The notes under the pieces were generated by a model. It saw only the letters and a program-made list of their open reading frames with translations, was not told the DNA's origin and did not search any database. From Struthio camelus (Eukaryota > Chordata > Aves > Struthioniformes > Struthionidae): DNA of 64,000 nt. The stretch spans positions 62,001 through 126,000 of the forward strand of contig NC_090968.1 of assembly GCF_040807025.1 (NCBI RefSeq), given 5' to 3'. Every line of letters starts with the position of its first letter. Within the stretch, counting starts at the first letter, position 1. Position numbers and translations under genes: made by a program. Below are positions 1 through 64,000 of the stretch, piece after piece.

Positions 1-2381
1 GAGCATAGCTCTGCTCGGGTAGCAGCCACAGCAGCAGCCGGTAGAGGAACTCCTGGTCATACTGGGAAGCGTAGAGCACCACGGCGCCCAGCACGAAGCC
101 GACGACCAGCTCCAGGCAGATGAAGAGCGTGCAGAGTCTCCTGGGGCACAGCGCAGGCATGGGAGAGGGCGCAGGGCAGGTGCATCCCAACCCTCTCCTG
201 CCCTGCACCCACCGCTGGGCCACGCGGGCCCCTTCAGCCAGCCCCACCGTCTGCGCCCCCACCCCCCAACACGCACTGCTCGTCGCTCCCTGGTGGAGGG
301 TTGCAGAAGAGCCGCCAGGAGCCCAGAAAGAAGAAAGCTTGGCGCAAGGAATGCGCTGCCGGGGCGTGATTCCCAGCTGCAAAGCCCACAGCCAGTGAGC
401 AGGACCCGCCAGGCCGCAGCCCGCTCGCTGCACAGCAGCCCACACGTGAGCCGCAGGGCATCAGGGACCCCAGGGGCAACTCACTGCAGCCACGTAGCCA
501 TGCCGCATCTCTTTGCCAGCTCCTGCCTCTCCTGCAGGCCAACACAGAGCGGGGACACTTGTGGGACCCACACGGGGCTGCATGGCGCCCCTCTCCCCAG
601 CAAGACCCTGCCAGCTCCTGCAGGCTTTGGCGCTGCCTCTCCCCCTTACCAGCTTCGCTTCCAGCAGCTCCGGCAGCACAGACCCCTCCACCTCGGGCTC
701 CTGCTCCATCTGCTGCTTGCTGCAGGCAACAGAGCTTGCTTGGGCGAGCGCTGACCTCCATGGCCGCTGGGGCTGCCCGTCGCAACATACTGCTGCCCCA
801 CAGCAGCCATCGGGGTCTCCTGTCCCGCCACATGCTGCACAGAGCCCCTGCATCCCCTCCCCGAGGCCGGCACTGGCGTCCTCTGGCCCTCCAGCTGCAG
901 CACAGAGCTGCTGCATGCGCCTGTGGGGAGAGGTGTCCCCGGTGCCCACTCACTAGGCATTTTCCAGCTCCAGCTCCTCCACTTCCTCTCGAAGTGGCCT
1001 CAGTTCAGCCCGCAGCACCTGGCAGACAGAAGGGGCCCGGTCCACGTGCCTGCTGCAGCCTCCTCCAAAGCCCCCGGCCAGTGGGCGCCCACCACCCTCT
1101 GCCCTCGCCCCTTTGGCACTACCTTTGCCCGCTTCTCCTGCTCACGCAGCTGCTGCTTCAGCTGGGCCGAGCGCTGCTGCTCCTGCAACTCACAGGGCAC
1201 ACAATGCAATGCCACCAGTGGAGCTGGCAGCTGGGCAGCCCCCTCCGCCTCCAGCCCCAGGGCTCGGCCCCCTCGCAACTGCCCCGCCCCAGGGCCCCGG
1301 GAGGGCTGGCCACAGACAAGGCCAGCCAAAGGGGAGTCACGGCCCCTGGGGCTAGTGCCCTCCCCAGGCCCACTGCTGGCCAAGGCTGAGGGGTGCACCG
1401 ATGCCAGCACTGGCACCCCACCAGCACTGGCACCCCACTGCTGCCAGCGCAGCTCTCCCTCTCCCCTGTACCTCGTCGAGCTCCTGCAGCCTCATGCGCC
1501 TCTCCTCCTTGGCTGCCTGCAAGCGCTCCTGCGGCAGAGGAGAGGAAGAGGAGCACTCAGCAGGGCACGGGCTCTCTCCTGTGAGATCTGCTCCTGGCAG
1601 CGGGTCCCAGGCCCTCCGCCCTCCCGGCTGCCCTCGGCCCCCAGCTCCCACTCTGCCACTGTCCCTCGCACGCGCCTCCCCTCTGTACCCAGCTCTGCAG
1701 GCACCAGCGGGCAGCCAGAGGCCCCTGGCTCCGCTCACCTCCAGCTGGGGCAGCAGCTCCTCCATCACCTGCAGCTCCTGCTGGCTGCTGCAGCACCGCT
1801 GCCTGAGGGCACAGTTCTCCCGTGCCAGCTCCTGGGCAGCAGCCTGCAGCTCCTGCTTCTCCTCCTGCTGCATGGGGAAGGGGGCAGAGCAGGGCTTCAG
1901 AGCCAAGCAGAGGGGGCACAGAGCAGGCCTTCAGCGGGGGCACCACCAGCCCCGCGCACCAAGGCCACTCCACGCCTACCAGGCACCGCAGCAGCTCCTT
2001 GCAATGGCCCCTCTCCTCCTTGCTTTCATTCAGCTGCTCCAGCAGCCTGCTGTGCTCGGCCAGCAGCCCTTCCAGCTCCTCCGCCCCTCTCCTGCGCCTC
2101 TGCTGCCTGCAGCAACGGGGTGCCATCACACCACACGCACCGGCACAGGCCCTCCCACCTGCCTGCCCTTCCTCCGCCAACCTCCGCACACCTCCCCAGC
2201 CTCCTGCATTCCCGCGCCCAGCCACGTCGCGATCACCCCACCTGGCCACCTGCTTGGTCAGGCGGGCGTTTGTGCCCTGCAGCGCCTCATAGTCCTTCTC
2301 CAGCGCCTCCAGGAGATTCAGCAGCTCCTGCTTCTGCGCCTGTACCCGCTGCAGGGCCAGCTTCACATCCGCCACCTCCAT
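1..2381 (-). CDS. TMCO5-like: TMCO5-like coiled-coil membrane protein, copy 1 (3' end cut by window)
   Basis: The gene is predicted from splice signals on the minus strand. Coding exons in transcript order are 2242-2381, 1980-2106, 1739-1867, 1472-1528, 1123-1182 (or to 1188 with an alternative acceptor), 954-1018, 650-719, 485-531 and 1-140. Every exon is bounded by an AG acceptor and a GT donor, and all phases join in frame. The product starts MEVADVKLALQRVQ. It is a long, Glu/Gln/Leu-rich heptad-type coiled coil (residues ~1-230), followed by a hydrophobic anchor at ~234-255 and a short tail. The last 62 bp of exon 9, about 20 codons and the stop, lie outside the window. Total length (298 aa in full copies), many small exons and the tail pattern (FLY..L..LLP, then L.LW.E.LLPS) match what I recall of TMCO5A/B, which is about 288 aa in human. 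Function is poorly known; the mammalian genes are mainly testis-expressed. Acidic D30 is shared with copy 3. The family call is from memory of the pattern, not from alignment. Confidence 0.7.
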
Positions 2382-3560
2382 GGCTTGGGCTGTGCGCTGG
2401 GAGGCAGCACGGTGTGAGGGGGCTACAGCCCGTGTGCTCGGGCACACAGGGACGCTCACGTGGTCACTACCCTTCCCGGCATAGACACACATAAACACTC
2501 GCGCACACTTACAGACCCATATTGCGTGTGCTCCAAACGATGTCCTCGTGCACAGCTGGAAGCAGCCACCCTGCTCCCCCACAGTCCACGTGTGCCAGGC
2601 ACACATGTACAGCCCTGGCCCACGGGCAGGCACACTCGGGCTGTGGCGCTGGCAGTTCCCCGAGTCCCACCGCCCCCACCGCCCGGCCCGACCCGGTCCA
2701 GCCCGTGCTGGACGTCCCCCACGCAGCTCACCTCCACTCTGCAAGCACGCCCCGTGGGAGCCCAGCCGCCTCTGCCAGGCAGGGCACGAGGAGGCACAGG
2801 CAGCGGTGCCTCTGGCGAGCGGTACCAAGGTCTGCTGCCAGCCCCAGAGCACGAGCCCAGCACCAGCCCCAAAAGCCTTGCTCGACCCCCCGCGCCTCAC
2901 ACCCGAGCTTGGCACGAGTCTGACCACCAGGCAGCTGGGCGAGACTCTGCAGCCGCCCGAGGCAATGCAGCAGCGCTGCGCTGTCACAAGAGGTTGGGGC
3001 CGTCACAAAGGGCCGTCACAAAGGGCCCCCGAGAGCGCTGGCCAGGGGTGGCCAGTGCCCCCCAGCAGGCACCCGCCTCTTGTGCTCCCCCAGCCTCCTC
3101 CCCGGGCACGGAGGCCTAAAGCCCAGGGCTGGAGATGGGAGGAGAAAGCCCTGGGGAAGCCCTTCATCCCCACAGCCTCTGCTGCAAGATGCCAGCTGGC
3201 CTGGCCCAAAAGGGCTCTGCGCTAGAGCCCAACCACTGGGGACCCTGTGGCAGCAGGGGCAGACAGGCAGACGCCTTTCCCAATGCATGGCAGACTCATT
3301 TCCCGCCATGGGGATGGTGGCCTTGCTTGGCCCACAGCTCCCAAGCCGTTCCTCTGAAACAGAGGCCAGCCTCCAGTCCCCTTTGCACGGAGAGCAAGCC
3401 AGCTTTCTGTGCAACAGTTGTGGCCAGTCACTCCCTGTGTCCTCTGAGCCGGCCTGCCTTGTTGGGGTCTAGCGGTCAGTGGCACAGGGCGCCGGCAGGA
3501 GCCAGCAGGGCAGCAGGGACAGGCGTCGCACCTGGAGCCCACACGTTGCCCAGAGCACAG
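2382..3560. other. GC-rich 5' flank of TMCO5-like copy 1
   Basis: No protein gene is recognised here. On the minus strand an acceptor-like tcccag ends at 2397, just before the ATG exon, so a short 5' UTR piece (2382-2396) is likely in the coding exon. A donor-like signal at 2730-2731 (ctcac) could end an upstream untranslated exon starting at 2732. At 2983-3025 the motif gtcacaa occurs three times, two of them as the direct repeat cgtcacaaaggg (3001, 3014), which on the gene's strand read TTGTGAC(GG). The equivalent regions are 22753-23931, 43130-44308 and 63495-64000. Confidence 0.5.
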
Positions 3561-4413
3561 CCCGGTAGGGGCATGCTTAGACTCATGTCATGGCTCTTCA
3601 CTAATGGGCGGGTATCAGATCTACTGGCAGAATGATGAACACTAACAGAAGCGCAGATCTACTAGCAGAATTGCTAACAAGGCCATCTCAAATACAAGGA
3701 GATCCCATAGGGGCCCCTGCACTGTGTGCTTCCCAGGGAGATAGCTTGGAGTGGGCCATAGCTGATGCATCGCATGGCGGGTATGCTGCCTATCTCTCAC
3801 ATCTTGCATGCAGATCAGAGACACTGCAGGTTCAGTTCTCGGACGTGCTCCCCAACCAACAGCATACCGAGAAAGAGCACGCCAACACCCACTCCCCCTA
3901 TCAGCTAGCTGAGAGAGAGGAGCTTCCCGCTGATGCCAGCTACCCACAGCTATTGTCTCGCGGGAAGCTCAGGGGCTGTGCTCCAGCGGGCAGACCCCTC
4001 ACGCGCTATAATCACCCTTTTCGCAGTGTTGTCCTGGAGCGATCAGTCCAGCCTTGCCGATCCGCTGCGCTTTGGGCCTGGGAATCTGCGGGGGACAGAT
4101 CACTAAGCCTCAGGGAGACAAGCTGTGCCTGTGCTGTTTGGCAGCCACCCTTAGTTTTCATGCTTAACGCCCGAGCTCTCCTTCCTCCTAGCCGTAAGCT
4201 TATTGAAGCCAGCCTGGACACCAGTTTGTCCACAGCACAGGCTCAGGTGACAGGTATTTTTTTGCAGTAAGCGGTCATTCCTGCGAGAGCCTACTGTGAC
4301 TGACCAACAACGCCTACAATGGGAGAAGGCTCAGAGGGCAAGGTGCCCCATGAATCTCAAGGACAGTGTAGGATGCAGCTCACTAACCGCAGCTGTTGCA
4401 CACAGACCTGACC
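3561..4413. other. Unrecognised stretch with a 212-codon open frame
   Basis: The composition changes from strongly GC-rich to mixed. An ATG-started frame runs 3632-4270 on the plus strand (212 aa, MMNTNRSADLLAELL...). It has no domain that I know, many Ser/Ala/Arg/Leu, and no clear codon bias, so I do not call it a gene. A short imperfect direct repeat, cagatctact(a/g)gcagaat, occurs near 3616 and 3655. An old LTR fragment is possible, but I see no defined ends. The same stretch is in units 2 (24003-24641 for the frame) and 3 (44380-45018). Confidence 0.3.
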
Positions 4414-4619
4414 AGCGTTGTGACGCTGAGCGTGTCTGAGACTGGAAATGGCAACCACATTGGTATTGTGATTGGTATTGTGCTTGAACTGTCTAGCTAG
4501 ATGTTGTTCAGTGTATACACTTGTACTGTGATACACTTGAATTGTGCTCTCAGGGCATTGCTGAATCATTGTGCTAAATCAACACCCCCTGTAACATCAG
4601 ATTCCCTCAAAAGAAACTT
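4414..4619 (+). repeat. Dispersed repeat, member A (unit 1)
   Basis: This segment is clearly related to 19112-19298 in the same unit. Both begin agcgttgtgac and share cacattggt(a/g)ttgtgat, gtgtacacttg-type and ctaaatca(a/g)aca(c)cccc.tgta(a/g)catca blocks in the same order, with several indels. It is followed at once by a CR1 3' end. It is probably a transposable-element remnant of unidentified family (an LTR or SINE piece). Confidence 0.6.
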
Positions 4620-4639
4620 TTGAGGCCTGTGAGGGTGAC

Positions 4640-4829
4640 GGAGCACTGGCAGAGGTTGCCCGGAGAGCTTGTGGAGTCTCCTTCGCTGGAGATTTTCAAA
4701 ACCGGCCTGGACGCGGTCCTGGGCAACATGCTCTAGAGGACCCGGCTTGAGCAGGGGGGTTGGACTAGATGATCTCCAGAGGTCCCTTCCAGGCTTGGCC
4801 ATTGCGTGCTTCTGTGTGATTCTGTGAAC
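4640..4829 (+). mobile_element. CR1 LINE 3' end (copy A, unit 1)
   Basis: The order of motifs is that of avian CR1 3' ends: ttgcccggagagcttgtggagtctcc, ctggagattttcaaaaccggcctgga, a gggcaacatgctctag block, ggttggactagatgatctccagaggtcccttcca, and a tail ending in repeated attctgtg-type units at 4829. Only about 190 bp of the 3' end is present; the element is 5'-truncated and has no coding capacity. Plus orientation. Confidence 0.93.
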
Positions 4830-7169
4830 CTGACAGCCACTGCAGGCAAGGCTGACACTGATTATCACACGGCCAGCTGATGCTCTGGCAGGGTTTGGGT
4901 CTCATAGTTGCTCTATCAGAGCAAGCAGGCGCTTGCACGCGTCTTGGCCCACCGCTGTCCCTTCAGAAGTTCAAAGGTGTTGGTGTGTGCAGGGCGGATT
5001 CCCCTCCTCCCTCCCTCCCTCCCTCCACCTCCACTGATTACAGTGGGAGCTTAGACAAGGAGCTGGCATGCAGACAGCCATTTTGTGCTCACCAAAACTG
5101 GGGACAGGGGAATCCCCCCTCCTGAGAGTGTGTGGAGTGCACGGGATGGAACGGAATCCCGCTTCATGCCAGGGCCTTCTCAATGTATTGTTTACCTCCT
5201 CTAAATCAGTCCCTGAAGCATGAGGAAAGTAACTCCCTTCTTGGCCCTGTCTAGGAGTCCTGTCTTCTCATGAGATGGGAATAGGGCCTTCTAGCGGGAC
5301 ATTTCCGGCTGTAAGGGTGAGGCGGGGGCAAGGCCTGGACTCCTGGCAGGGACAGATACACTGTTTCTATCACTGTGTCAGAGCGGGCTTCTCTGTAATA
5401 AATGGGGATTTCCTCAGTGCAGTGCTTGAAGGTTGGGCTCTTCTTCCAAAGGTGGAGTCAACAATGCGCTCAAGGGCTTTCAGCCTGAAGGGGCCTGTTG
5501 CTTTTTGGGGGTTCTCCATGGGCTCGAGGCGATGAGCCCATGGGATGATGTGTTAGGGAAGGAGGGCTGGATTCAGCTCTCGCTTGTGGGTAGCCAGTGC
5601 TCCTGGAGGTGGTGAATGGTCAAGTGGTATCTCCCAAACGACAGGGCTGGAGACTGATTCCCATCCTTCTCCAAGGGAGTATGGAGCCACCAGGAGAGCA
5701 CAGGGCATCTCCAAGGGCACCACGTGCCCTCGGGGTGGGCAGTGAATGGAGCTTCACAAAATCAGGTGGAGTCATCCAAAGGTAAAGGCCTAAACCAATG
5801 AATGTGCAGGCCAGTGAGAGCCCTACAGTCCCACGAGAGGCAGTGGGGACCCCGGAGGCCCAGGGAAAGGAGCCTGGAGAGCGGTTCACGTCACCTTCAA
5901 TGAAAAGCCATGGGCTTGATCTAGGGCCACACCTGAACACAGCCTGAGCTGTTTGAAGTGCCCTGCGATTGCTCAGAGCATCGTCCATGGCCACCTACCC
6001 TTTGGTAGGGGGTTGTCTGTCCCGCGGGGTCTGCTTCCCACCCTGACCACCACGGCCAGGGCGGAGTCACCCTGTGGCCCCAGGGCACCACGGTCCGCTC
6101 CCACTGCAGAGCAGCACCCCCAGCTCGGGTCGCTACACAGGGGAAGGCTCCAGGAATGGCCGGGCAGGCCAGCGCCGATGCACTCACCTGGGGAAAGGCT
6201 CTTTGGGCAGCAGGAACGTCCCTGGAGAGCAGCAAAGCAACAACCGTGTGCTTGCAAGGAGGAATAAGCGAGCGAGAAGTCTGTTTCTCTGTGTGTCAGC
6301 TAAGGGCAGGCTGGTGTGTCCTGGGGGCAGCAGGAGCTGCCTGAGGAGCCGCAGGGCAGGGACTCTGGCGCTGTCCTGGAGGGAGGCGCTGGCACGAGGG
6401 AGCTGCAGGCCGTCTGGGGGCAGGGAATCTCCTTGACACAAGAACAAGGGGCACAGAGTGTCACTGTCCTCTGCTTCCTTGTGCCACTGGGGCCAGGGAC
6501 AGTTTGGAAGCTGACGAGGCAGCTGACACCCTGCCCCTACCCACCCCTTCCCCCGTGCTGCTGTGCTTTCAAGGGGGCTTGGGCTGTGGTGTGAGTGCTA
6601 CTGTGCCGCAGAAACACGGGCCTCGACCCCTCGCTGCAGCCCCCACTGCCCTCCTGCCCCTGCCCTGCCGCCCTGCCGTCCTCCCCACGCTGCCCTGCCT
6701 CCTGACTCCTCTCCCCACACCGCAGGGCCCGGCAGTGCAGCAGGCGCAGGCACAGCCCCGCAGCTGCTGCCTGGTCCCCGGCCCTCCCCGCCTCCCTCCA
6801 CACCAGGGCTCCAGCCCCAGCCAGGCAGCAGGTCCGGCCTCTCCCCCCAGCTCCTGGCCTGGCTCCTCCCGCACTCCCACCCCCTGGCAGGGAGCTGGAG
6901 CTGCCCTGGTCCCGGGCAACTGGCCAGCACCAGGGCTGGCATAGGGCCCGGGTGGACAGGCAGTGCGGGGGGGCAGTGGGGCAGGGCGAGCAGCCTCCCT
7001 CAGGGCCCCACGGCTGGGCCAGGAGGGATGAGGCCATGCGGCCAGCTGGGCTCCAGCTGCTGCTTTGATGTCAGCTCCATGGAGGGACCGTTGGGGTTTG
7101 CTCCCTTTGCAGGGGAATGGCTGGAGGCGGAGACCTTGCCGGGGCCTGGCCCAGACCGGGGCAGTGCGC
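4830..7169. other. Non-coding stretch, GC-rich, with minus-strand splice-like signals
   Basis: No gene is recognised. A (CCCT)n run lies at 5003-5026. On the minus strand there are isolated splice-like signals: a 33-34-nt segment near 6190-6223 (acceptor ctgctctccag, donor gtgagtgc) and a good donor ccaaag|gtaggtgg near 5999. These could be exons of a short non-coding transcript, but no reading frame links them. From about 6520 to 7060 the DNA is very C-rich on the plus strand, which produces long spurious open frames rich in Pro/Ser/Ala. Equivalent stretches are 25201-27539 and 45571-47911. Confidence 0.35.
5003..5026. repeat. (CCCT)n simple repeat
   Basis: A short tetranucleotide run of ccct/ctcc, apparently of equal length in the three units (also at 25374-25397 and 45745-45768). 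Confidence 0.8.
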
Positions 7170-7537
7170 TACTGATCAAATTGAAGGACGCAGCCCCCTT
7201 TTCCTCCACCAAAATGATCCACAGACTATTAGGGCACGTGCGTTTAATCCACAGTACTCCTTATGGGACCGAAGGCAAAAGAAATGTGCTGTCCGTTCTT
7301 CTAGGTGAAAAAACGACGTTGGTTTGTGTCGCCATCTTTGCCCTTCTAGCTTCCAGGACTGTTAAAACAGCAGTGAATTTTGTGGTGGGAACAAAATTGA
7401 GAAAGGGTTTGTTGAAACGGCTTAAGAGAAAACCTGAAACAATTTCTGATTTTGTTACCTATAGGCCACAAAGATTATGTTACTCTTTTGCTATTCCCGA
7501 GGGGAAGGCATTTACCGCCACAGCTGAAAAGTGAGCT
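7170..7537 (+). other. A+T-richer open block of unknown identity
   Basis: The base composition drops sharply in GC between two GC-rich flanks. One plus-strand frame stays open from well upstream to the stop at 7532-7534. Its last ~105 codons (MIHRLLGHVRLIH... LRKGLLKRLKRKPETISDF...) have a hydrophobic stretch (TTLVCVAIFALLA) followed by a basic segment, which could be mere chance. I do not recognise the family. It may be a remnant of an inserted element or processed sequence. The unit-2 and unit-3 equivalents are 27540-27907 and 47912-48279. Confidence 0.3.
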
Positions 7538-7689
7538 TAGGTTGTCCCAGTTGGGTCAGTCATTTTTCTCAACTGCTATTGTTTCTCTGTCTCTACTGCT
7601 GGGAGGCAACTCTCTGGACCGACTGAACTCAGTTATGCCTCTAGGATCTTTGGCTTGAGCCGGCATGAGGTGCTGCCATGCTGTGGTGG

Positions 7690-7837
7690 CAGAAAGAAAT
7701 GCTAGAGAGGCTGTGGAGTCTCCCTCACTGGAGGTATTCAAAACCCAACAGGGCCCGGCCCTGAGCAACCTGCTCTAGCTGACCCTGACCATCTCCAGAG
7801 GTCCCTTCCACCCTCCGCCATTCCGTGGTTCCGTGAC
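7690..7837 (+). mobile_element. CR1 LINE 3' end (copy B, unit 1)
   Basis: A diverged, 5'-truncated CR1 3' end: gaggctgtggagtctccctc, ggaggtattcaaaacccaac, gagcaacctgctctagctgaccctg, atctccagaggtcccttcca, then a degenerate tail (attccgtggttccgtgac). It has more changes from the CR1 consensus than copy A and lacks the usual ttggactagatg block. Confidence 0.88.
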
Positions 7838-8470
7838 CCTGCAGTTGTTGATATTCAACTCTCAGAACAAGCCTGAGTTCTACCGGACGGAGGTGACGCC
7901 GCACTGCAAGCTCAAAAGCTTCCTGGTCTTGGGAGGTGCACAGACAGTGTATTCAGAGTGAGCAAGCAGGTAGATCTTCCTTTAAAAAGCAGAACCACTC
8001 AGAATTCACTGAGCTCAAGGGGAGGTCCTTGCCACCTCCCTCTGGTCTGCAGGAAACACATCTGGCTGCCCTTAGACAGTTCTCGGCCGTCCTGGATATC
8101 CCACCTCAGCTATTCATGCCTCAGCTAGGCATTACCTCCCCCCACTCCCCAGGAGCCCTCTCCTCCAGGCTTCTCCTCCTTCTTCCTAAGTGCTGGCTAA
8201 TTCCACAGATTCATGCCTTGCTTCTGCCTCCCTTTATGGTACCTACGATGACTTCTCTGAAGTTCTGGGGCTGCCTTTATACAGTCGCAGTTACCAAGCC
8301 ACGTGCAGGATTTTCCCCTAACTGCAGCCTGTTCCCTTTACAGCCACATACAGTCGTGTGCTCTACAGGCCCTCAAGCTGACAGCGCGCCAGAGAGAGCG
8401 CACCTGAACCCTTGGAGGAGGTGAGGCACGTTTGGCTCCCCCACCCGCACGGCCCCCAGCAGAGGAGCCC
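7838..8470 (+). other. 5' flank of TOPORS-like copy 1
   Basis: This lies between the CR1 fragment and the inferred start codon. It contains a TATA-like TTTATA at 8276-8281, about 190 bp before the ATG at 8471; any transcription start near 8305 is a guess. No other gene is seen. Equivalents are 28208-28840 and 48580-49212. Confidence 0.3.
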
Positions 8471-11152
8471 ATGGAGGTAGGTGCCACCCACCCTCGCCCC
8501 TCACCCCACGAGCGGCAACACAGGCAGAGGGAAGGGGCTTGCTCTTCTTGCGCTGAGAGGGGCCATCGCACTGCCGCCAACGCCAAAAGGTTCGTCACCT
8601 CTCCACCAATCCTTTGAAAAGGGTGAGGGTCAGAGCTGCCAGGGGCAGGGCAGGGCTTGTGGACTTCTGCTGCAATTTGGCTGGGCGGCAGGGCACATAC
8701 TCCTGCTGGGCTCACTTGGCTGACAGGCATGCTGTGCATCTGTGGCCAGTGCCGTGTGTGTAGCAAGAGGCTGCAGGGGTCTCCAGGAGTGCTGAGAGAC
8801 CTCGTTGCCTCTTCCTCGGAGTGCACTTGCAGCTGTGGTGAGCTGCACTTGGAACTATGCTGCAGGCTGGGCTGTGCAAGGAAGCAGAGGTGGTCAGTGG
8901 GGTTTTGGGAAGTGCTGAGTCCCAAGCAGCAAGGGCATGCTTTTGAAGAGGGCAAGGAGAAAGGGCAGGGTGCCCAAGAATGGCAAGGATGCCCACGTTC
9001 CCCGGGGGCAGCATGTTGGTTCCTGAGCTTTCTGGCAGCTCCCAGTTCGTAAAGGAAGAGTTGCTCTGAGAACTGTCTGAATGCATGCTCCCCCAGCCTC
9101 CTGTGCTCTGCTGATGCGGCTGGTACTGGTGCAAAGAGGGACCTCTTCCTTTCCGGAGGAAGGAGGGAGGCAGATGTCGGCAATTCCTAGGCAGTTCCTG
9201 AGCCGGGACATTTTTCAATGTCTTTCCTTCCTCTCTTGCTGAGTTAGGAGGAGACTGACCCATGACACCTCCCTGTCATGGGAGGGCACCGAGGCCTTCC
9301 TGGGTGATAGGCACCAGTGCCTGTGTTCTTTCTTCTCATCCTGAAAGAAGCCTCGTGTGGGTTTCTGTGCCAATGGCTCTTCTGCACCGCTGCCTGCACC
9401 ATAGTCCGCCCTCCACACTGCCCTCCGCAGTCTTCCCAGGAAGGGCAATGATCTCGGCCTCTCTTTCTGCAGCGGAGTGCAGCATCAGCAGCTGAGGCAC
9501 CTGCAACGGATGGCAGCTCCTTACCCTCAGCTCCCCCCAGCCCTCTGCAGCAGACAACACCAAGACCTGCAGCTCCAGACGCTACGTGTCCCATCTGCCT
9601 GGACACCTTGGACAACGTGGCCTACATAAAACCTTGCTTCCATAAGTTTTGCTTTAGTTGTGTGTTCCGGTGGTCGAAAACAAAGGCCGAATGCCCGCTG
9701 TGCAAGCAGGCTTTCCGATCAATTCTGCACACAGTGGTGGCAGAAGATGACTACCAGGAGCATGTCATCAGGCCCCCCGAAGATGGTTCTGTTGCCAGCC
9801 ATCAGCAACGGAGAGCTCCTCACCGCCCTGCCATCCGGAGGCGCCGTCACCCTGCAGCTCACCCGCAGCAGCCTTCCCCTTCTCCTCAGATGCGACCCTC
9901 TCCGCAGAACAGCAGCAGGCTGGAGGGGACCCGGAGGCACACCAGGCAGAGGCAGAGAGAGGGAGGGCTGCTGGAGCCACGCCAGAGGCTGTCCCCACAG
10001 AGGCAGGCCAGGGCTGACAGGAGACCTCAGGGGCATGCGGCAGCGACGGAGGAGGAGATGCTGAACTTCCGCCGCTCTCTGTACCGCACAGGGATGCGCG
10101 TGCAAAGGGCTCCCGATGGCGGCCACCCCCAGGACATCTCGGCAGACTTCTTCTGCCGCAGCCCGGCCAGCATTCAGAGACTGCTGCCCTGGCTGCAGCG
10201 GGAACTGAGAGTCCTCTTTGGAGTCCACCAGACATTGCTAACTGTCACGGAGCTCATTGTCCTGACAAACCTGAGGAGGTACGACCTGGACAGTCAGGCC
10301 TTTGCTGAGGACTTAGAGCTGCTTCTGCTGAGTCGCACCGAGCAGTTCCTCCACGAGCTCATCAGCTTTGCCCGCTGCTCGTGCAGCATGGAGACCTACG
10401 ACCAGCAGGCCATGTATGGCTACCGTGCTCCCAGCCGGCACGAAGGAAGCCCCTCAGCCTCATTGAGCCTGGCAGCTGCTGCAGGGACGGCCCGGACTCC
10501 TGTGCCAGCCCAGAGCCCATCCCGAGCTAGTAGCCCTGGGCTCACGGAGCTTCCTGGCCCCTCGTACGCCATCCCCCACGAGCTTGCCGCAGCCACACAG
10601 TCTGCCCAGCAGCCGCGGCGAAGCTCTGATGATGGGGCAGCTCGAGCAGGAGGAGAAGCCTGGAGAGAGTTGCTGGCTCCTGCCGACCCCCAGGACAGTG
10701 ACTCCTCGTCAGACAGTTGTGTCCTTGTAGGGTCCTGGAAGCCCTGGGCAGAGGGAAGCCCTGAATGCATTGTGCTCTCCTCAGACTCAGAGCACTCAGC
10801 CGCGGCAGAGGAAAAGGAAGCTGGGCAGAATGAGCAGCCGCTCCATGGGTCCAGCCGGAGCTGCAGCAAAGCCAGCGGGAGCTGCTTGCCCAGCTCCGCC
10901 ATGCCGAAGGAAACTGGCTGGAGCTGCCGCGGCTGCTGCCCCACTGCCCCCAGGGAGGAGACAGAGCCCCGGCAGGGGCAGGTGGAGGATGTGGCTGGTT
11001 GCTCTGTGCAGGGCTGCAGCCAGATCCCCTTTGCTCCTGGCAGCGGCAGGCAATGCTCACCCGGGAGTCCCCGGCTGCCCAGAAAGAGGAGGGCAGGCAG
11101 CCCCGAGGCCTGTACCCAGCCCAGCAAGAGGCAGGCATGGCCTCAGCGTTAG
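8471..11152 (+). CDS. TOPORS-like: TOPORS-like RING-finger E3 ligase, copy 1
   Basis: The large coding exon is 9473-11152 (stop TAG at 11150). The RING domain opens in frame with no ATG before it and a stop at 9449-9451, so the start must come from an upstream exon. A pyrimidine-rich acceptor ends at 9472. At 8471 the sequence ATGGAG is followed by a strong donor (gtaggt), and the phase fits; this gives MERSAASAAEAP... and 561 residues. Exon 1 is the less certain part. The RING is C3HC4 with all ligands present: C41, C44, C57, H59, C62, C65, C76, C79. It and the flanking LQQT...CPICLD match TOPORS, a nuclear ubiquitin/SUMO E3 that binds topoisomerase I and p53. Residues ~236-318 (RLLPWLQRELRVLFG...RYDLDSQAF...FLHELISFARC) match its second conserved region. 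Acidic Ser-rich stretches with hydrophobic cores (~417-440, ending ECIVLSSDSE) resemble SUMO-interacting motifs. The C-terminus is basic (PRKRR, PSKR), likely nuclear localisation. Human TOPORS is about 1045 aa, so the long C-terminal RS region is missing. Copy-specific residue: M198. Confidence 0.85.
8477..9472 (+). other. Inferred intron of TOPORS-like copy 1
   Basis: The sequence starts gtaggtgcc and ends tctttctgcag, both good splice consensus. It joins ATG-GAG to the RING exon in phase 0. Short open frames inside it have no recognisable content. If an extra exon lies here I do not see it. Equivalents are 28847-29842 and 49219-50214. Confidence 0.5.
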
Positions 11153-13080
11153 GAAGGAGAGAGGAAGATGGCCAGGAAGCAGAGACGAGAGCAGCCAGAG
11201 AAGCCTGTGGCAATGGCGGCTAGGTAAGAAGACCGAAAGAAGTGGAAAACGGGCTGGACTGCTGCCCTCCAAGGGTTGTCTTCAGCGGTACAAGGTCTGG
11301 CAGTCAGCTGACTGTGAGTAGTGGCCTCCTTGGGAGAAGGTAGCAATGCTAGGGCAAAGACTGGTTCAGGTGTTCTTAATGAGGCGATGGAGGGCTCTCG
11401 GGGCAAGCTTGGAGTAGGAGTTGGACTAGACGCTGGCAGATGCAGGGCCCACACGGATGAGGAAGTCTGTCAGTCCCCCCAGCAGTTATTCTAGGAGATG
11501 GCTGTCTGAAAGCACCTTTGGCAGGACACTGCGGGGCCAGGTTTGTATAAAGACCAGTGCAATCCAGCTGGTTGCCGTGACAAATGCTGAGGAGAGTGAA
11601 GGGGTCCCTCGTGACTCACTTGCCTTCTGTCACCCTCTGCTCTCCCTTGGCAGGCAAGGAAGTGGTGGGTTTTCCGCACAGACCTGAGGTGCACCGAGCC
11701 CCTCTCCTTGTGTGTGTGTGGGCCTCCCACCAAAATGCCTGAGCTCCCCTGCAGCTGTTCCCCAAATGGCCCTGTCTGGGCTGGAGAACGGGGAGGCATA
11801 AAACTCCCCAGCATACACTTCTGGGGAGGAACCCTCTCAGCTTCCCCTCTGCTGGAAAAGTGGCTTGCCTCCGTGTTTCTGCTCCTTTCGCTCTCACCCC
11901 ACCTGCTCTAGGGGCTTTTAATCTCCTTGCGTGCCTTACTTCTTCCCCTTTGCGTTGCTGGCGTGCAGTGCTAACCACGGTGTTGGAGCGGGTGCCACCT
12001 TCCAGGTAAGAAGCTGGCCCTGGGGTTTTTCACCAGTGCTGCTGCTGGCTAAGGAGCTCGTCACCTGAACGCACTTAAGGCACCTGGGATGTGAGCTGCT
12101 GGAGAGCTGCCAGAGCTCAGGATGCAAGAAGACTGGCTTGAATTGTCTAGCTCTCCTCAGCTTGGAGGCAGAGCTAGCCCTGCCAGGACATGGCTTCCAG
12201 GCTGACAACCCTGCTTTGAAGCTTCTTTGAAGCAGGAGCAAAATCATTTCTGGGAGGTGTGTCACATTCCGCATGTCCGATGGCTGCTGAGGACCGGGCT
12301 GCAGCAGTGGTGAGCGTAGCTGTGGCTGTGGGGGTTGGCAGGGCTGAGCAATGCAGCCTCTGGCCTCTCTCCCCAGGCCCCCTGCAATGAGGTGAGGAAC
12401 TGCTCACTGAGGTGAGCCCATCTCCATGCTTGTGCCTCAGGGGGCATGTTATTCCCAGCTCACAGAGGCCTTCAGCTTTCCCACATGTTAACTTAGGAGT
12501 TAACATCTCTGCCTGAAAGCAAACCCTGGGACTGCAACCTTGGCTAGGTTTTGGTAGGAACAACGGGAACTCCCAGCTCGATACAAAGGGAGGCACTCCC
12601 AGCGCAGCACCCTAAGCCCAGGCTGACGGAGGCAGGCTCTCTTGTGCTCCTGCTTTCTGAGCCAGGGACTCTGGGGTCCTTGGCTGCACAAAGGCACAGC
12701 TCCAGCTGAAGTGGTGCCGGTTAGACTCGCCAACCCAGCAGCCACTGTGTGCTCCGGCTTCCCTAAAACACAGGCGGCATCTCCCCTTCCTCCTCTCGCA
12801 GCTCTTCCAGAGAACACTTGTGCGCAACTAGCTTTCAGGACTGGTCTCTGATGTCCTATGGCTCCCTGTCAGCGTGAGTCAGAGAGGATTTGGGGCAAAC
12901 TCCCGTCCTCAGGCTTTTCCCTTAGCCAGCACCAGGCAACACCATGCCGAGATGAGATTTCCCTCACTTGTCTATCGAGATATATTTCTCTGGAGTCACG
13001 AGAGTGATAACAGGAGTGCAGTGAGAAATTAAATAATAACACAAGCTTGTTCTTCCAGGAAAAAAGTATTGCCTACTCAC
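11153..13080 (+). other. 3' region of TOPORS-like copy 1 with splice-like signals
   Basis: A strong donor (ctag|gtaagaag) lies at 11224, 71 nt past the stop. A pyrimidine-rich acceptor ending at 11968 and a donor at 12006 (ttccag|gtaagaag) bracket a 37-nt exon-like segment, 11969-12005. Further acceptor-like (ctctctccccag, ending near 12377) and acceptor (cttgttcttccag, near 13058) signals follow. ATTAAA occurs near 13028. These may be 3' untranslated exons or a separate transcript; the evidence is splice motifs only. Equivalents are 31523-33450 and 51895-53822. Confidence 0.35.
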
Positions 13081-54800: not shown

Positions 54801-55112
54801 CTCACAGACTTTTCAGCACTCTTGCCGGCAACAAGGGACTCACTAGAACAGCAGAGGCGGCGCATCCACAGCAACAGCTCTACACCTCCCCCCTTCCCCA
54901 CTCTTGGCACTGAATCGGGAAAGCATCCGAGTTCCTCTGCTCAACAGAGGCAAGGGCAGCCCCCCTCGCAACCTGGCCAAATGGTCCTTCCCAGAGACAC
55001 GGCTGGCCGCAGGGGCACCTCCCTCCCAGGGCTCCCCTCCACCTCCACGGCACGATGGAGAACACAGCCTGCAAACGGATCCCACCGCTCCTGCCAAGGC
55101 TCTTTTGAGAAT

Positions 55113-55422
55113 GTAGGGTAGTTACAGTGATAGGATGCTGTTAGGATAGCTAGCGTAGAGTTGGTTATCATAGTCTTAGCGTGTAGTTACTTACAGTATT
55201 CTTAGAGCAGTTGGAGTATCCTTAGGTCATTGTAATTTCTCTAAGGGTAGGAGACAGCTAGTCTGCCTGGCTATACTTAGGGCAGTTATTATAGTTATCA
55301 TATAGTTACCATTAGCATTATTACTTATAGTTAGAGTTAGTTAGAGTTACTGTTCGTAGTTATCCTTAGGCCATAGTAATTCTTGCTGGAGGGTAGTTAA
55401 TGTCAGAGGAGAGTATTAGGAT
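55113..55422. repeat. TTAG/GTTA-rich degenerate tract (unit 3)
   Basis: Unit-3 counterpart, with one visible change (taatgtcagagg near 55400). That a degenerate simple repeat is nearly unchanged between units argues for recent duplication or ongoing homogenisation. Confidence 0.65.
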
Positions 55423-58400
55423 GGTTTCAGATAGCTAGCCTGGCAGGAGGCTAGCTCCCCCACTCCCCACCAGCTGGGGCACAGCAAGCTCATGGGCTTG
55501 CACTTTAGGTGCAGTAGCTAACTCCTAAGAGAGGAACTGTCTGCACAGGCAGGACAAGAAGAAAAAAGCTTAATCCCTACGTTGCAGCCGATAGAGGAAA
55601 ATCGGAGTGCTGGCTGCTTTTTGGAAGAAGGCGTCAGAAACATAATTAACACGAGAGTTCCTCAGCAGGAGGTGATCACAGTGTTACCCTCACAGGGCAT
55701 GTCTCCCCACAGCTGCTGCGGCGTTGTTTCCCACACCATCTTCCTGCAGAAGGAAGACCCTTGACTCGCACCCGAAAAACATGCCACTGAAAAGGAATCC
55801 TAGGAGAAAGCAGCAGAAATACGCTTAAGCATCCCAGCTGCCAAGTCTTTCAGGTGACAAAGTTCATCTGAGGAACACCCCATACCTGCCACTTTGGGGG
55901 CAGCATGGTTTTGCCCACCCCCCTCCTGAATGGGGGCAAGACAGGACAACCCAGCAAAACCACATCGCCTTCACTAACAACAGCTTGCAAGCCCCTGAGG
56001 AAAAGCTGCCCCTCAAAACAACTCCTGTTTTAACAGGTCACAGGGTTAAACACCTTCCTCCCCTAAAGACATTACAAAGCCATTGGCTGCCGTCCCTTGC
56101 CCAAGAGGAACTGCACAGCTTCTGCTGGCAAGCAGGTATCAGAAATCCAGGCAGACAACACAGCTCTGCCCTGTGAGCTTCCAGCCCTGATCCCACCCAC
56201 CAAACATGGGGGAGCTACAAACCCCCCCGGGCCCTGCCCCGGACACTTCACAGCTACAGAACTGCCCCACTTCTCTCATTTCGGCAAGGCATCTGTTACT
56301 GTTCAGGAGTTCCTCTCACCCGTGTGAAATGACACGGGTTTGTCTCTGGAGACACAATCTGCCTACTTGCCCAGAAAAAACCCACAGCCGCTTCCATTCA
56401 GTCACTGTGGAATTTCCAAATGAATGCAAAACAGAGGGAGAACTTTCCTCTCTCTCGGTTTCCCAGCCCACTTGCCCTCTCAGCTGGTACATCAAGAACA
56501 GGACGAGATGCCTGTGGGCTTTCTCTAAGAGCTTAGGCTCAGTAGTACAGATTAAGGCCTCATGAGGAGGAGGTCCAGTTCCCTTTTCCGGGCGGAACAA
56601 CCCACTCCGGAACAGAGATGTCTTTGTAACGCCTCCTTTGTAGCGCCGCCTTCTGATGTCTTTGCGCCTTCCCTTCTTCCGGCAGAGAGTGGCTGCTTAA
56701 AACAAAACCAAAGCAAAAAAGCACCCCACTCATTCATCTCCCTGTTTTGGGCCAAAAGAGCTGCAGAAGGATCAAAGGACACCGAATGGCTGCGCAATAA
56801 AGCATCAGAGGATATTCACTGCAGGGGAAGTAAAGCATCTAGGGGGCCAAAACACCCAAACCTTAACTTTACATGCACAAATGACAGGCTGTGACCTAGT
56901 GGTTATTGGCCAGGGAGACCCAGCCAGTCAAGCAGAGCGCTCCATGAAAGCACGTGCTCCTTGCTTTGCCGAGGTCAAAAGGAGGAAAGCAAATGCAAGA
57001 AGAAAAGGGACAGAGAATCAGGCAAGGAACCGCATTAGGCCCTTCCACAGATTCACGGTGTGCCTGAGTGGGTGCCCCTCTGCAAGCACAAATACAGGAA
57101 AGGCCCTTGGGCTACTGCCTCTGGCAGGGGAAGCTCCCAGGCCACAGCCTGCTGGAAGAATGCTCGGAGGAAAAAAAAAGAAAACATCAGTATATAGTGC
57201 CCTCTTCTGATCCTCCTTCCTAGACAGCTGCTGTTCAACACTGCCCAAGAGAGTACCAGTGTGAACCAACAGCTCGTTTGACCCAGTGGACCCCGCTGCT
57301 CCTGCTCTGGAAAGCTGTTGGTGTAATCGTCTTCCCCACCTCGGCATCAATGGCAAAGACATCTAAGGAAGCCAGGTTAGCTAGAGATTTGTGTTACGCC
57401 AGCTAACACATGCAGAAATGCTTGCTAACGCTGCAGAGCTGCAATAATTTGGAAGCTCTAACAGTGGGAGGTGCCAGGAGGAGAGTTACAAAGCTCTTGG
57501 AAGAACGCAATGCCCTCCGTGGACAGCACGCTTCCGCTTCAGCTGTCAGGCTGCTACTAGGAAGCCCCTCCCCGACAGTCTGCCCTCAGGTCAAAAGCCT
57601 AGCTTTACTGATTGCTCTCTAAAGGCAGTTCCTTTGTGCCAGGGGCCACCACGTACTTCACAGCAAAGCTTTGGCTCTGAATATACTGGGGAGTTGGCAC
57701 AACCCAGGCATCCAAGACCCTGCAAGGAGGGCTCATGCTACGGCCTGACATAGGCTGGGAGCAGCACCATGAGGCTAAAGGGAGAGCAACCCATACGCCC
57801 CATCCTCAAGGACAAAAAGGATGAGGTCTGCTATCCTTGCAGGTTTTTAAGGAACTGCTTGTTAACACCACATAAGACCCAAGTGCTTTGGAATTAAGTA
57901 AATCCTTGCTCAGGAACCAAAACAACCAATAGGCATGGCAGGGATTGAACTGCCAAGCCGGAAGGTCCAAATACATCGGCTCACTCAAGCAGCCTTGGAA
58001 GCGGATGCAGCAGCAGCCGCACTGCTGAGGCTCTTGTGCATCCCGGTGCAATTCAGGGCATGCCCGCATCGTGACGGAGGAAGGATGAGCACTCTCACTG
58101 TCGGTTAGGTAACTGCCTTGCTCATAAGCATGTGAATTAATGAATCATCGAGTTAACAAATCAGTGAACTAGCTAATTAAGTAACTACAGAATTAATGAC
58201 TTAGGCTAGTCTGCACAGAAAGGATTCACTCTTTCTTTGCTTTTGGGTTTTTTTTTCTTTTTTACCTAATAAGCTCATAAGACTAAAGTTGGTTTCACAA
58301 AGTACGCTGTCCTGTAAATTTGAGAGATCACAACGTGACACACAGATCCGCCTTTTCCTGGGAGAGACCTACAACCAACACTCAGGGTAGCCCATGCTCA

Positions 58401-59200
58401 TTGTGCTTTAAAGGCACCCAAGCCAGTATGGTGATAAGAGACTCTGTACCTGACCAGATCATTTCGCAGTGGGCCCCAAGCATCACCACATTGATGTCTG
58501 CACTGACAGATGGGAAAGTGTTCGGAGAAAAACCACGAGTCAGCTTTCAAGCACCATTAGATGTATGGGGCTCTCAGGTTATGAGGGACAACGCAGACAG
58601 ATTCCTCATACGCACTGGCTGAGTAGGAAGCGTCAACTCGGACAAAGAGGCCTTCTGACTATCATGTGAAAGTTGACGAGGACTGGAGCACGGCATCTGC
58701 TGGGGCTTTAACTGCAAGACTCCACACTGGACCAAGTTAGTCATTTTGCAAGAAGGGATGCTGCTCCTGCCTCACAAGCAGAGCTTGTCATTTTGTACCA
58801 CCCAACAGCCTTTCCTCAGATTCCAGGATCTACCCCAAAATAATTACAAAACTCATAGCTTTGCATAACAATGGCACAGACATGTGAAAAAAGTACTTGT
58901 CAACTACCACGTAAATAACAAACAGTGAAAAGAGGAAAAAAACCCAGCTCATGGGGACAATAGCAAATGTGTGCACATGACATTCTGACAAACTGCTGGC
59001 TAGAGAAGAAAATTGTTTGCCAGCAATCCAATTACACCTGACCTCCCTGCAGGGGACGATTCAGGACACCTGCAACAGTTCCATGCCTTCAGCTTTCTAG
59101 AGAAGCTCCAGAGAAGACACGAACCTGATCTAAACAAGGGAACTTGGCTTGTCCCGAAAAGGTGCAATTTGCTTACTTGCTTTGGAAGCTCTGCCATCAT

Positions 59201-59216
59201 AAACAAACAAACAAAA
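59201..59216. repeat. (AAAC)n microsatellite (unit 3)
   Basis: Three aaac units as in unit 1, but with the longer ccaaacaaacag downstream that unit 2 has. Confidence 0.85.
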
Positions 59217-59855
59217 TACCATGCACACCCCCCCCAAACAAACAGTTACAAAGGGATTATTTAAGAGTCTTGCCTAAAGTCTGCATTAATTTAAGACCAG
59301 GGCACCCAAAGGTGCACACAGAATTTGTCACTCACCATTACTGCAAACAGCCAGAGACACTACAAAGGTCAGCCCGAGGAGAAGAGGGTTAAGTAACAAT
59401 ACCCACTCTTGACCAGAGAGACTGTTGTTCTGTCCTTCTTTACCAAACACTTGGTGCGTTAGAAGCCGTTTGATCACACAGGGCAAGACCCATTTTCTCC
59501 TCGTGATTCAGAAGGGAACAGGGGAGTCTTGGCTTTCCTAAAGCAGCCATAGCCAGGAAACACTGATGCACAGAAGGCAGAAGCAAGGAAACGTGAACCC
59601 CTGCTTAGCTAGCTCCGTCTCCAGCAGCAATGCACACCTCGAGCAGAGGGTTTTGCTCTGTCTTTACCATTTGGGTTTAAGCAAGGGCCTGGGCGAAAGG
59701 AATTAAGGACATTTGTGTCGAGGAACATTGGAAACAAAGGGAAGAAAACGGGCCCTAACCTGTAAAGGGTTTGAAAAAGTTCTTGATGCAAAGGAGAGCA
59801 ACGGGCTTGAGCTGGCTTCAACCCACGTATTCCTTCCTGGCGACTGGGGAGGCCC

Positions 59856-60042
59856 AGCGTTGTGACAGTGAGCCCATGATAGTAATGGGTAAAGGGGATC
59901 ACATTGGTGTTGTGATGGAACTGTATAATGCAACTGCTAGAGTTTGTGAAGTGTACACTTGCATTGTGGTTTCAGACTGTTGCTGTATCGCTCTGCTAAA
60001 TCAGACATCCCATGTAGCATCAAATACCTCGAAAGGAAACTG
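59856..60042 (+). repeat. Dispersed repeat, member B (unit 3)
   Basis: Unit-3 counterpart of 19112-19298, starting agcgttgtgacagtgagc. Confidence 0.6.
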
Positions 60043-60529
60043 TTATGGGGATGGGAGCTCTCACAGCTCCAGGCCTTTCTGCCCCTGTCGCGCTACAACA
60101 CTGGCTGAAAGCACCACTCCGTTTCCCCCGGAGGGTGGCAAACAGCTCCCGCGCCCAGCTCAGGTTTCGGGGGCCAGTTCCCTTCCAGCGACTCCCACAG
60201 GGGAGCCCAGCAGAGCGGGGCCCAGCGGCAGCAGCCTTTCCTGGCGGAGGCTCCGCTGGAGGACAACTCCCACTGCCCCGGGGCCGGCCTCACGCTGCTG
60301 GGGCGAGGGCAGGAGCCGGAGCCGCCCGCGAGGCCGCGTGTGGAGAGAGCAGAGAGCTCGGAGCTGTGACGTGCGGGTCTGCGGGGGACCGGCCTCGGGC
60401 GGCGGTGGGGAGGGCAGTGGCACCTGGCGCTGCAGGGCCCCGGGCCTGGGCTGCTGAAGAGAAGGAAGGGGAGGCCCAGGTAATGAGAAGCTCCTGTGTG
60501 TCTTCGGCCTTGCGGCTGAGGAAGTAAAA

Positions 60530-60839
60530 GGGGGTGATTGTGGTGGTGCTGATGAGGGGCCTGGAGGACATCCCCTGTCTGGAGATGGTCAGCAAGAGCA
60601 TGCTGGTGCTGGCCAAAGTGGTGCATGAGCTGAAGGGCAAGGACCTGGGCTCCGCTTTCAGGGACACTGCCAAGTGCAAAGACCATGGCGGGGCACGGTG
60701 GCCCTCACGAGTCCACAACGTCTGCTCGATTCACACGCCGTCTCCAGGCTCGGACGCCTTTGCCTGCTCAACACCCTGGGACAAGACAACCCCGGGCCTT
60801 GGAAAGTACACCGAGTACACCAAAGGAAGGAAACTCTGA
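60530..60839 (+). pseudogene. Coding-like block of unknown identity (unit 3)
   Basis: Unit-3 counterpart of 19786-20095, identical in the readable stretch to the unit-2 copy. Confidence 0.35.
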
Positions 60840-61051
60840 ACCCCCTCCCCCCCAACAACCACCTCAAATCACCCCCTGCCCACAAAGGCCACCATGTGAA
60901 AAGACTCTGGGGCTCCAAGGGCCTCTCTCTGCGTGCGCACAAAGCACACTCGACCACACCAAAGCGGTCTCCGAGGACGTCTTATTCAGCGGGCACCCAG
61001 CAGGCTCCACGAGGCCGAGACCTACGGAGACGTGGGGCTGGGCGACAGCTG

Positions 61052-63494
61052 TCAGGAAGGCAGCAGCCCCTCACTCCACAGGCTCAGGGTCTCTCCCAGC
61101 ACGTACACCAGGTGAGCATAGCTCTGCTCGGGTAGCAGCCACAGCAGCAGCCGGTAGAGGAACTCCTGGTCATACTGGGAAGCGTAGAGCACCACGGCGC
61201 CCAGCACGAAGCCGACGACCAGCTCCAGGCAGATGAAGAGCGTGCAGAGTCTCCTGGGGCACAGCGCAGGCATGGGAGAGGGCGCAGGGCAGGTGCATCC
61301 CAACCCTCTCCTGCCCTGCACCCACCGCTGGGCCACGCGGGCCCCTTCAGCCAGCCCCACCGTCTGCGCCCCCACCCCCCAACACGCACTGCTCGTCGCT
61401 CCCTGGTGGAGGGTTGCAGAAGAGCCGCCAGGAGCCCAGAAAGAAGAAAGCTTGGCGCAAGGAATGCGCTGCCGGGGCGTGATTCCCAGCTGCAAAGCCC
61501 ACAGCCAGTGAGCAGGACCCGCCAGGCCGCAGCCCGCTCGCTGCACAGCAGCCCACACGTGAGCCGCAGGGCATCAGGGACCCCAGGGGCAACTCACTGC
61601 AGCCACGTAGCCATGCCGCATCTCTTTGCCAGCTCCTGCCTCTCCTGCAGGCCAACACAGAGCGGGGACACTTGTGGGACCCACACGGGGCTGCATGGCG
61701 CCCCTCTCCCCAGCAAGACCCTGCCAGCTCCTGCAGGCTTTGGCGCTGCCTCTCCCCCTTACCAGCTTTGCTTCCAGCAGCTCCGGCAGCACAGACCCCT
61801 CCACCTCGGGCTCCTGCTCCATCTGCTGCTTGCTGCAGGCAACAGAGCTTGCTTGGGCGAGCGCTGACCTCCATGGCCGCTGGGGCTGCCCGTCGCAACA
61901 TACTGCTGCCCCACAGCAGCCATCGGGGTCTCCTGTCCCGCCACATGCTGCACAGAGCCCCTGCATCCCCTCCCCGAGGCCGGCACTGGCGTCCTCTGGC
62001 CCTCCAGCTGCAGCACAGAGCTGCTGCATGCGCCTGTGGGGAGAGGTGTCCCCGGTGCCCACTCACTAGGCATTTTCCAGCTCCAGCTCCTCCACTTCCT
62101 CTCGAAGTGGCCTCAGTTCAGCCCGCAGCACCTGGCAGACAGAAGGGGCCCGGTCCACGTGCCTGCTGCAGCCTCCTCCAAAGCCCCCGGCCAGTGGGCG
62201 CCCACCACCCTCTGCCCTCGCCCCTTTGGCACTACCTTTGCCCGCTTCTCCTGCTCACGCAGCTGCTGCTTCAGCTGGGCCGAGCGCTGCTGCTCCTGCA
62301 ACTCACAGGGCACACAAAGCAATGCCACCAGTGGAGCTGGCAGCTGGGCAGCCCCCTCCGCCTCCAGCCCCAGGGCTCGGCCCCCTCGCAACTGCCCCGC
62401 CCCAGGGCCCCGGGAGGGCTGGCCACAGACAAGGCCAGCCAAAGGGGAGTCACGGCCCCTGGGGCTAGTGCCCTCCCCAGGCCCACTGCTGGCCAAGGCT
62501 GAGGGGTGCACCGATGCCAGCACTGGCACCCCACCAGCACTGGCACCCCACTGCTGCCAGCGCAGCTCTCCCTCTCCCCTGTACCTCGTCGAGCTCCTGC
62601 AGCCTCATGCGCCTCTCCTCCTTGGCTGCCTGCAAGCGCTCCTGCGGCAGAGGAGAGGAAGAGGAGCACTCAGCAGGGCACGGGCTCTCTCCTGTGAGAT
62701 CTGCTCCTGGCAGCGGGTCCCAGGCCCTCCGCCCTCCCGGCTGCCCTCGGCCCCCAGCTCCCACTCTGCCACTGTCCCTCGCACGCGCCTCCCCTCTGTA
62801 CCCAGCTCTGCAGGCACCAGCGGGCAGCCAGAGGCCCCTGGCTCCGCTCACCTCCAGCTGGGGCAGCAGCTCCTCCATCACCTGCAGCTCCTGCTGGCTG
62901 CTGCAGCACCGCTGCCTGAGGGCACAGTTCTCCCGCGCCAGCTCCTGGGCAGCAGCCTGCAGCTCCTGCTTCTCCTCCTGCTGCATGGGGAAGGGGGCAG
63001 AGCAGGGCTTCAGAGCCAAGCAGAGGGGGCACAGAGCAGGCCTTCAGCGGGGGCACCACCAGCCCCGCGCACCAAGGCCACTCCACGCCTACCAGGCACC
63101 GCAGCAGCTCCTTGCAATGGCCCCTCTCCTCCTTGCTTTCATTCAGCTGCTCCAGCAGCCTGCTGTGCTCGGCCAGCAGCCCTTCCAGCTCCTCCGCCCC
63201 TCTCCTGCGCCTCTGCTGCCTGCAGCAACGGGGTGCCATCACACCACACGCACCGGCACAGGCCCTCCCACCTGCCTGCCCTTCCTCCGCCAACCTCCGC
63301 ACACCTCCCCAGCCCCCTGCATTCCCGCGCCCAGCCACGTCGCGATCACCCCACCTGGCCACCTGCTTGGTCAGGCGGGCGTTTGTGCCCTGCAGCGCCT
63401 CATATTCCTTCTCCAGCGCCTCCAGGAGATTCAGCAGCTCCTGCTTCTGCGCCTGTACCCGCTGCAGGGCCAGCTTCACATCCGCCACCTCCAT
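61052..63494 (-). CDS. TMCO5-like: TMCO5-like coiled-coil membrane protein, copy 4 (complete)
   Basis: Exons in transcript order are 63355-63494, 63093-63219, 62852-62980, 62585-62641, 62236-62295 (or 62301), 62067-62131, 61763-61832, 61598-61644 and 61052-61253. The product is 298 residues with E30 and E274. Exon 7 carries a silent change (alanine codon GCA where the others have GCG, near 61769). The intron before exon 5 has 'cacaaagcaatg' where the other copies read 'cacaatgcaatg', outside the splice sites. The coding region is intact, but the 5' flank is cut by the window end about 0.5 kb upstream, so its promoter is only partly visible. Confidence 0.72.
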
Positions 63495-64000
63495 GGCTTG
63501 GGCTGTGCGCTGGGAGGCAGCACGGTGTGAGGGGGCTACAGCCCGTGTGCTCGGGCACACAGGGACGCTCACGTGGTCACTACCCTTCCCGGCATATACA
63601 CACATAAACACTCGCGCACACTTACAGACCCATATTGCGTGTGCTCCAAACGATGTCCTCGTGCACAGCTGGAAGCAGCCACCCTGCTCCCCCACAGTCC
63701 ACGTGTGCCAGGCACACATGTACAGCCCTGGCCCACGGGCAGGCACACTCGGGCTGTGGCGCTGGCAGTTCCCCGAGTCCCACCGCCCCCACCGCCCGGC
63801 CCGACCCGGTCCAGCCCGTGCTGGACGTCCCCCACGCAGCTCACCTCCACTCTGCAAGCACGCCCCGTGGGAGCCCAGCCGCCTCTGCCAGGCAGGGCAC
63901 GAGGAGGCACAGGCAGCGGTGCCTCTGGCGAGCGGTACCAAGGTCTGCTGCCAGCCCCAGAGCACGAGCCCAGCACCAGCCCCAAAAGCCTTGCTCGACC
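61114..64000. repeat. Tandem unit 4 (partial, runs off window end)
   Basis: The first 2887 bp of a fourth unit are present, collinear with unit 1 without indels over this stretch. It contains the 5' exons and most of the last exon of a TMCO5-like gene; the final part of that last exon lies just left of the arbitrary cut, at 61052-61113. The sequence breaks off in the gene's 5' flank, so the array continues to the right. Confidence 0.97.

Follow-up and report, generated by a model that had tools for sequence, protein, structure and literature searches.

A two-gene tandem amplicon of TOPORS-like and TMCO5-like genes next to a satellite on a small contig of the ostrich

Gene-bearing tandem arrays have been described mainly on sex chromosomes and, with the completion of the chicken genome, also on the chicken dot chromosomes. 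In the chicken, amplicons of testis-expressed genes lie in pericentromeric heterochromatin beside satellite DNA (PMC9974502). The array analyzed here, on ostrich contig C27, shares with the chicken dot-chromosome amplicons many tandem copies of protein-coding genes, a GC-rich composition, an adjoining satellite and a small chromosome; of the features of the chicken dot type, tandem gene copies, a satellite neighbor and microchromosome size are found on C27. The chicken dot amplicons hold other genes, however (for example OR29G, with 386 intact copies), whereas each 20-kb unit on C27 carries two unrelated genes, and the ostrich array is known here from its sequence, whereas testis expression and pericentromeric position are properties of the chicken amplicons. 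The HINT1W array of the chicken W, in which a unit of 5,648 bp is duplicated 52 times (PMC9974502), and the chicken Z testis amplicons have in common with C27 a gene-bearing tandem unit and high GC; they are nevertheless sex-linked, with a smaller unit described for one gene, while C27 bears no sign of sex linkage. The human TSPY array, with a 20.4-kb unit in ~20-40 copies (PMC3924835), resembles C27 in its nearly equal unit length, tandem arrangement and similar copy number, but the genes are different, the host of C27 is a bird, and C27 is not Y-linked. Identity of the C27 array with TSPY was considered and rejected, the genes of the unit being TOPORS-like and TMCO5-like and the genome that of a bird; the equal unit length is taken as a coincidence.

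The window, meaning the whole stretch of 64,000 nucleotides that was analyzed (C27:62001-126000), is filled by 3.14 head-to-tail units that are ~99.8% alike. The initial annotation had proposed a head-to-tail array with a period of ~20.37 kb, and shared 24-mers, self-BLAST and genome coordinates all agree with it. Within the window, shared 24-mers recur only at offsets near 20.37, 40.74 and 61.11 kb, and none are shared in inverted orientation; self-BLAST matches positions 20372-64000 to 1-43635 with 99.76% identity and 61114-64000 to 1-2887 with 99.79%; and the unit bounds in the genome (62001, 82372, 102749 and 123114) give spacings of 20371, 20377 and 20365 bp, exactly those reported in that annotation. 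Unit 1 (1..20371; 20,371 bp) has its phase fixed by the window start and is followed by unit 2 (20372..40748; 20,377 bp), unit 3 (40749..61113; 20,365 bp) and the start only of unit 4 (61114..64000, placed by self-BLAST and genome match), no strand being assigned to the units. When the three full units, delimited by the three spacings, are aligned, they differ in 45 columns by substitution and in 27 by gaps; 36 of the 45 substitutions are transitions, the pairwise counts are 40, 23 and 27 substitutions, and private substitutions number 22, 18 and 5 in the full units and 2 in the partial fourth.

Several smaller features were seen in the same unit. Two tandem exon-like stretches at 13083-13378 on the minus strand, 47% alike, carry a repeated 25-residue motif; one has splice-like ends and the other lacks an AG acceptor, and they may perhaps be remains of a third gene. 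Two related fragments at 4663-4816 and 7705-7835 are 69% alike and resemble avian CR1 3' ends. Positions 4532-4621 and 19210-19300 of a single unit hold two similarly oriented copies of a further repeat, 76% alike.

Beyond the window the array continues along C27 in both directions. With window positions 1-3,000 as query (40 of 68 candidates scored), 27 full-length copies were recovered, all on the plus strand of C27 with starts from 906 to 518820, together with one inverted partial copy; with unit part 14401-17400 (40 of 140 candidates scored) there were likewise 27 copies, all on C27, and outside C27 only pieces at 76-81%. The first base of the contig corresponds to unit position 19465, and because the contig thus starts inside a unit, the left end of the array is missing; the right end comes at C27:538,213, where the 27th unit stops (unit position 19404). 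The array is thus confirmed as real, with neither end inside the window, as supposed, and the proposal of an ampliconic locus with a possibly high copy number holds, with 27 unit starts assembled and the array cut by the contig start. At its right end the array folds back: an inverted 12.6-kb partial unit (C27:538211-550798, 99.76%) comes directly after the 27th unit, the two overlapping by 3 bp. Directly after this inverted copy lies a GC-rich satellite of 31 bp, whose higher-order offsets are 3,253 and 2,508 bp. A 31-mer taken from it matches the genome at 817 places, all of them forward, and the 100 listed of these are all at C27:551060-606125; the satellite word is present in 1-kb C27 samples at 700 and 900 kb and absent from those at 1.0, 1.2 and 1.5 Mb. 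The far end of C27 consists of telomeric TTAGGG repeats, and the array sits at the opposite, unfinished end. At 7,997,582 bp the contig is microchromosome-sized, and it is probably a microchromosome.

The 26 unit spacings fall into three length classes that lie in runs (A7-B4-C2-B3-A3-B2-A5), with spacings, in order, of 20.36 kb seven times, 19.45 four times, 18.66 twice, 19.46 three times, 20.36 three times, 19.45 twice and 20.36 five times. Class B corresponds to class A minus ~904 non-coding bp (unit 5322-6224; one B unit read); class C is shorter again than class B, by 805 bp lying within the TOPORS-like gene (unit 9771-10575; one C unit read, the 904-bp loss in class C being taken from its size); for the second C unit the 805-bp deletion is deduced from its size and a missing protein match. 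The seven runs are fewer than shuffles give (permutation p 0.0003). Divergence also rises with distance between units (Spearman 0.47, Mantel p 0.007) in a sample of 9 of the 27 units, ~6 kb each, that is biased in that eight of the nine are the best-scoring matches to the window. Runs and distance pattern are as expected from unequal crossing-over between neighbors, the mechanism that we infer, and an assembly artefact would hardly produce them.

The first of the two genes in the unit is TOPORS-like and lies on the plus strand. Its main exon, identified in copy 1 (9473..11152) by RING match, homology and splice reading and present as an open frame in copies 2 (29843..31522) and 3 (50215..51894), encodes 559 residues, preceded by a putative two-codon first coding exon (ATGGAG) that was read from the bare DNA letters at 8471..8476, with the same at 28841 and 49213. 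An alternative 3' exon at 11969..12068 (end approximate), also on the plus strand and joined to a donor after 10599, accounts for the 33-residue tail of the ostrich protein record P0004 ('E3 ubiquitin-protein ligase Topors-like, partial'), to which spliced copy 1 is identical at 373 of 374 residues, tail included; P0004 probably comes from the same assembly as the window and so is not independent of it. The protein contains a C3HC4 RING finger (PF13923, PF13639 and PF00097, all above the Pfam cut-off), and its best named matches are Topors or Topors-like (among 120 of 174 listed). It has the RING and the first half in common with TOPORS, and its alignment to the kiwi protein of 1004 residues covers residues 7-547 at 45% identity. 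At 559-561 residues against ~1,000, however, it lacks the arginine/serine-rich C-terminal half, the kiwi alignment stopping at residue 547. In the tree it groups with bird TOPORS (99/97) as against the other vertebrates included. It is 72% identical to protein P0003, ungapped over 534 residues and open to the same end, and P0003 groups with a Rhea pennata protein (100/100). Topors-like clusters at 90% identity have 13 members in Rhea pennata and 21 in ostrich, members being sequences and not counted genes.

A protein search of the genome (46 of 902 candidates scored) found on C27 25 plus-strand TOPORS-like copies and one inverted; each has a single TAG, identified as the natural stop in those copies that were read. 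Two of the 27 units have no TOPORS-like match in this search, and one of these two, read directly, has the 805-bp deletion in its RING gene; the two intact genes per unit of the initial annotation are thus found within the window, where copy 1 of the TMCO5-like gene is cut by the edge, but not in the deleted unit beyond it and probably not in the second. Variable codons among the window copies of the TOPORS-like gene comprise 4 that change the amino acid and 1 that is silent, where the neutral expectation is 71% changing; this ratio is near neutral, and selection within the array is therefore unsupported.

The second gene is TMCO5-like and lies on the minus strand, with nine exons and 298 residues in a hand-made model whose introns are GT/AG. 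Copy 1 (1..2381) shows the first 8 exons, its last exon being cut by the window start and found whole in the genome at C27:61942-62145; copy 2 (20310..22752) is the one modeled, and copies 3 (40687..43129) and 4 (61052..63494) are intact. Emu protein P0001 (79%) agrees with the model at the seven junctions that join exons 2 to 9; the first exon rests on C27 and C41 sequences. On C27 there are 27 TMCO5-like last exons, 0 of them with a stop (132 of 392 candidates scored). Residues 1-220 are rich in L, E and Q, and a 19-residue hydropathy peak of 2.6 from residue 236 marks a single hydrophobic C-terminal segment; the protein is accordingly predicted to be a coiled coil with a C-terminal membrane segment. 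This architecture, in which a long coiled coil is combined with a single membrane segment at the C terminus, is what it shares with TMCO5 and TMEM191, along with weak Pfam matches; it differs from them in that scores fall below the gathering thresholds and in its tandem arrays on two contigs. Ranked by E-value, TMCO5 comes first among the Pfam families and TMEM191C second, but the TMCO5 match scores 15.6 bits for the window protein and 23.7 for the emu protein (gathering cut-off 32.2), and that to TMEM191C 16.1 and 18.0 bits (cut-off 32.7); TMEM191C being as near by bits, the protein is best described as resembling TMCO5 below threshold. Variable codons in the first 8 exons of the four window copies number 1 changing and 2 silent, and the last exon in the window adds 1 changing.

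Both genes have relatives elsewhere in the genome. A separate TMCO5-like array on C41 (4032543-4164099) has at least 18 last exons, a unit of ~7.86 kb and a GC fraction of 0.65; its units are ~99% alike among themselves and have only the TMCO5-like gene region in common with the C27 unit, at 78-79% DNA identity over most of that region. One C41 copy and one C27 copy have the same exon lengths and splice sites, with exons 88.4% and introns 78.7% identical and dN/dS of 0.37 (NG86) or 0.17 (YN00), and this comparison shows protein-level constraint. More distant TMCO5-like last exons occur on C33 (3), C47 (1) and C167 (3), among the matches listed (132 of 392 scored); the distant copies at C167:16610-144598 and C33:2672996-2737260 lie ~64 kb apart (~63.9 kb on C167), a spacing that hints at another, far longer tandem unit. 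Canonical TOPORS is at C41:18074737-18077748. TOPORS-like genes occur on C1 (46 of 902 scored), with 10 at 7989226-8036740, mostly 4.7 kb apart, 3 at 21.99-23.26 Mb and 4 at 138.97-139.66 Mb; near 134.06 Mb of C1 there is an inverted, divergent TOPORS-like pair, matched in two pieces. The genes of the first three C1 regions have open frames, and pairs of C1 copies give dN/dS of 0.46-0.56. In a tree, the C27 gene falls into a single clade with three sampled C1 copies and the two rhea-like rows (100/100), a grouping to be taken with caution as long branches meet in it.

The explanation that we prefer, and hold to be somewhat better than an even bet, is that the locus is a real two-gene amplicon of the heterochromatin type on a small ostrich contig, shaped by crossing-over and with products acting in the germline. 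The array would grow, shrink and homogenize by unequal crossing-over between neighboring units, through which variants spread to neighbors. Both proteins would be made in male germ cells. The TMCO5-like protein might, as a membrane-anchored coiled coil, take part in vesicle or microtubule work in spermatids, mouse TMCO5 being located on the spermatid manchette (PMC6687282), and the TOPORS-like protein may be a short ligase for ubiquitin and/or SUMO, derived from TOPORS by loss of its arginine/serine-rich C-terminal half. A germline role is proposed for both ostrich genes, the mouse precedent applying to the TMCO5-like one.

The strongest competitor, which we rate as possible though unlikely, is that the array is a passive by-product, its units riding on satellite expansion and its genes kept by inheritance and not through any benefit of high copy number. 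This would fit the adjoining satellite, the near-neutral variable codons of the TOPORS-like gene, and the gene-breaking 805-bp deletion, seen in the one unit read and deduced in a second; it is at odds with the amplification of both families elsewhere (TMCO5-like on C41, TOPORS-like on C1) and with the constraint on the TMCO5-like protein between C41 and C27. In a wider scheme, germline amplicons on several chromosomes (joint on C27, separate on C41 and C1) would co-evolve in an arms race of the male germline, in ostrich and perhaps in other palaeognaths; a ubiquitin/SUMO ligase of shortened TOPORS type and a spermatid protein resembling TMCO5 would have been amplified repeatedly because of their part in it, for example in conflict between chromosomes transmitted through spermatids. 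We regard this wider scheme as improbable.

A sex-linked amplicon (W or Z), comparable to HINT1W or the Z amplicon of the chicken or to TSPY in humans, is very unlikely. The kinds of genes and the unit size are reminiscent of those systems, and a related array lies on the same contig as canonical TOPORS, C41, whose length of 89.9 Mb falls in the range (82-93 Mb) found for many contigs that carry TOPORS in other birds. C27, however, is a separate contig of 8.0 Mb with a telomere at one end, and a 2-kb sample from it at 5.0 Mb (one sample) has no counterpart on other contigs, an 86-bp stretch on C27 itself being its only counterpart in the genome; an assembled Z-W pair would give a counterpart elsewhere, and its absence counts against sex linkage, an idea raised with the initial annotation that these results leave unsupported. 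That the array is mostly an assembly artefact, with one or two true units falsely repeated, is scarcely credible, for although it reaches a contig end and P0004 is not independent of the assembly, the private substitutions in every unit of the window, the partial fourth included, amount to more versions than two haplotypes of a single unit could supply, and the excess of transitions, the nested deletion classes in runs and the 13 member sequences of the Rhea pennata Topors-like cluster also speak against it.

No earlier report of this ostrich array was found in the literature searched, in which the two-gene amplicon is new, its kind being already known in chicken. Coming from a palaeognath, it adds a second lineage for comparison, one in which each unit holds two unrelated genes, each gene has sister arrays on other contigs, and the nested deletion classes preserve a record of local exchange. 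It thereby becomes possible to test whether amplicons of this type go back to the ancestor of birds, and whether they are under selection or are simply carried along by satellite growth.
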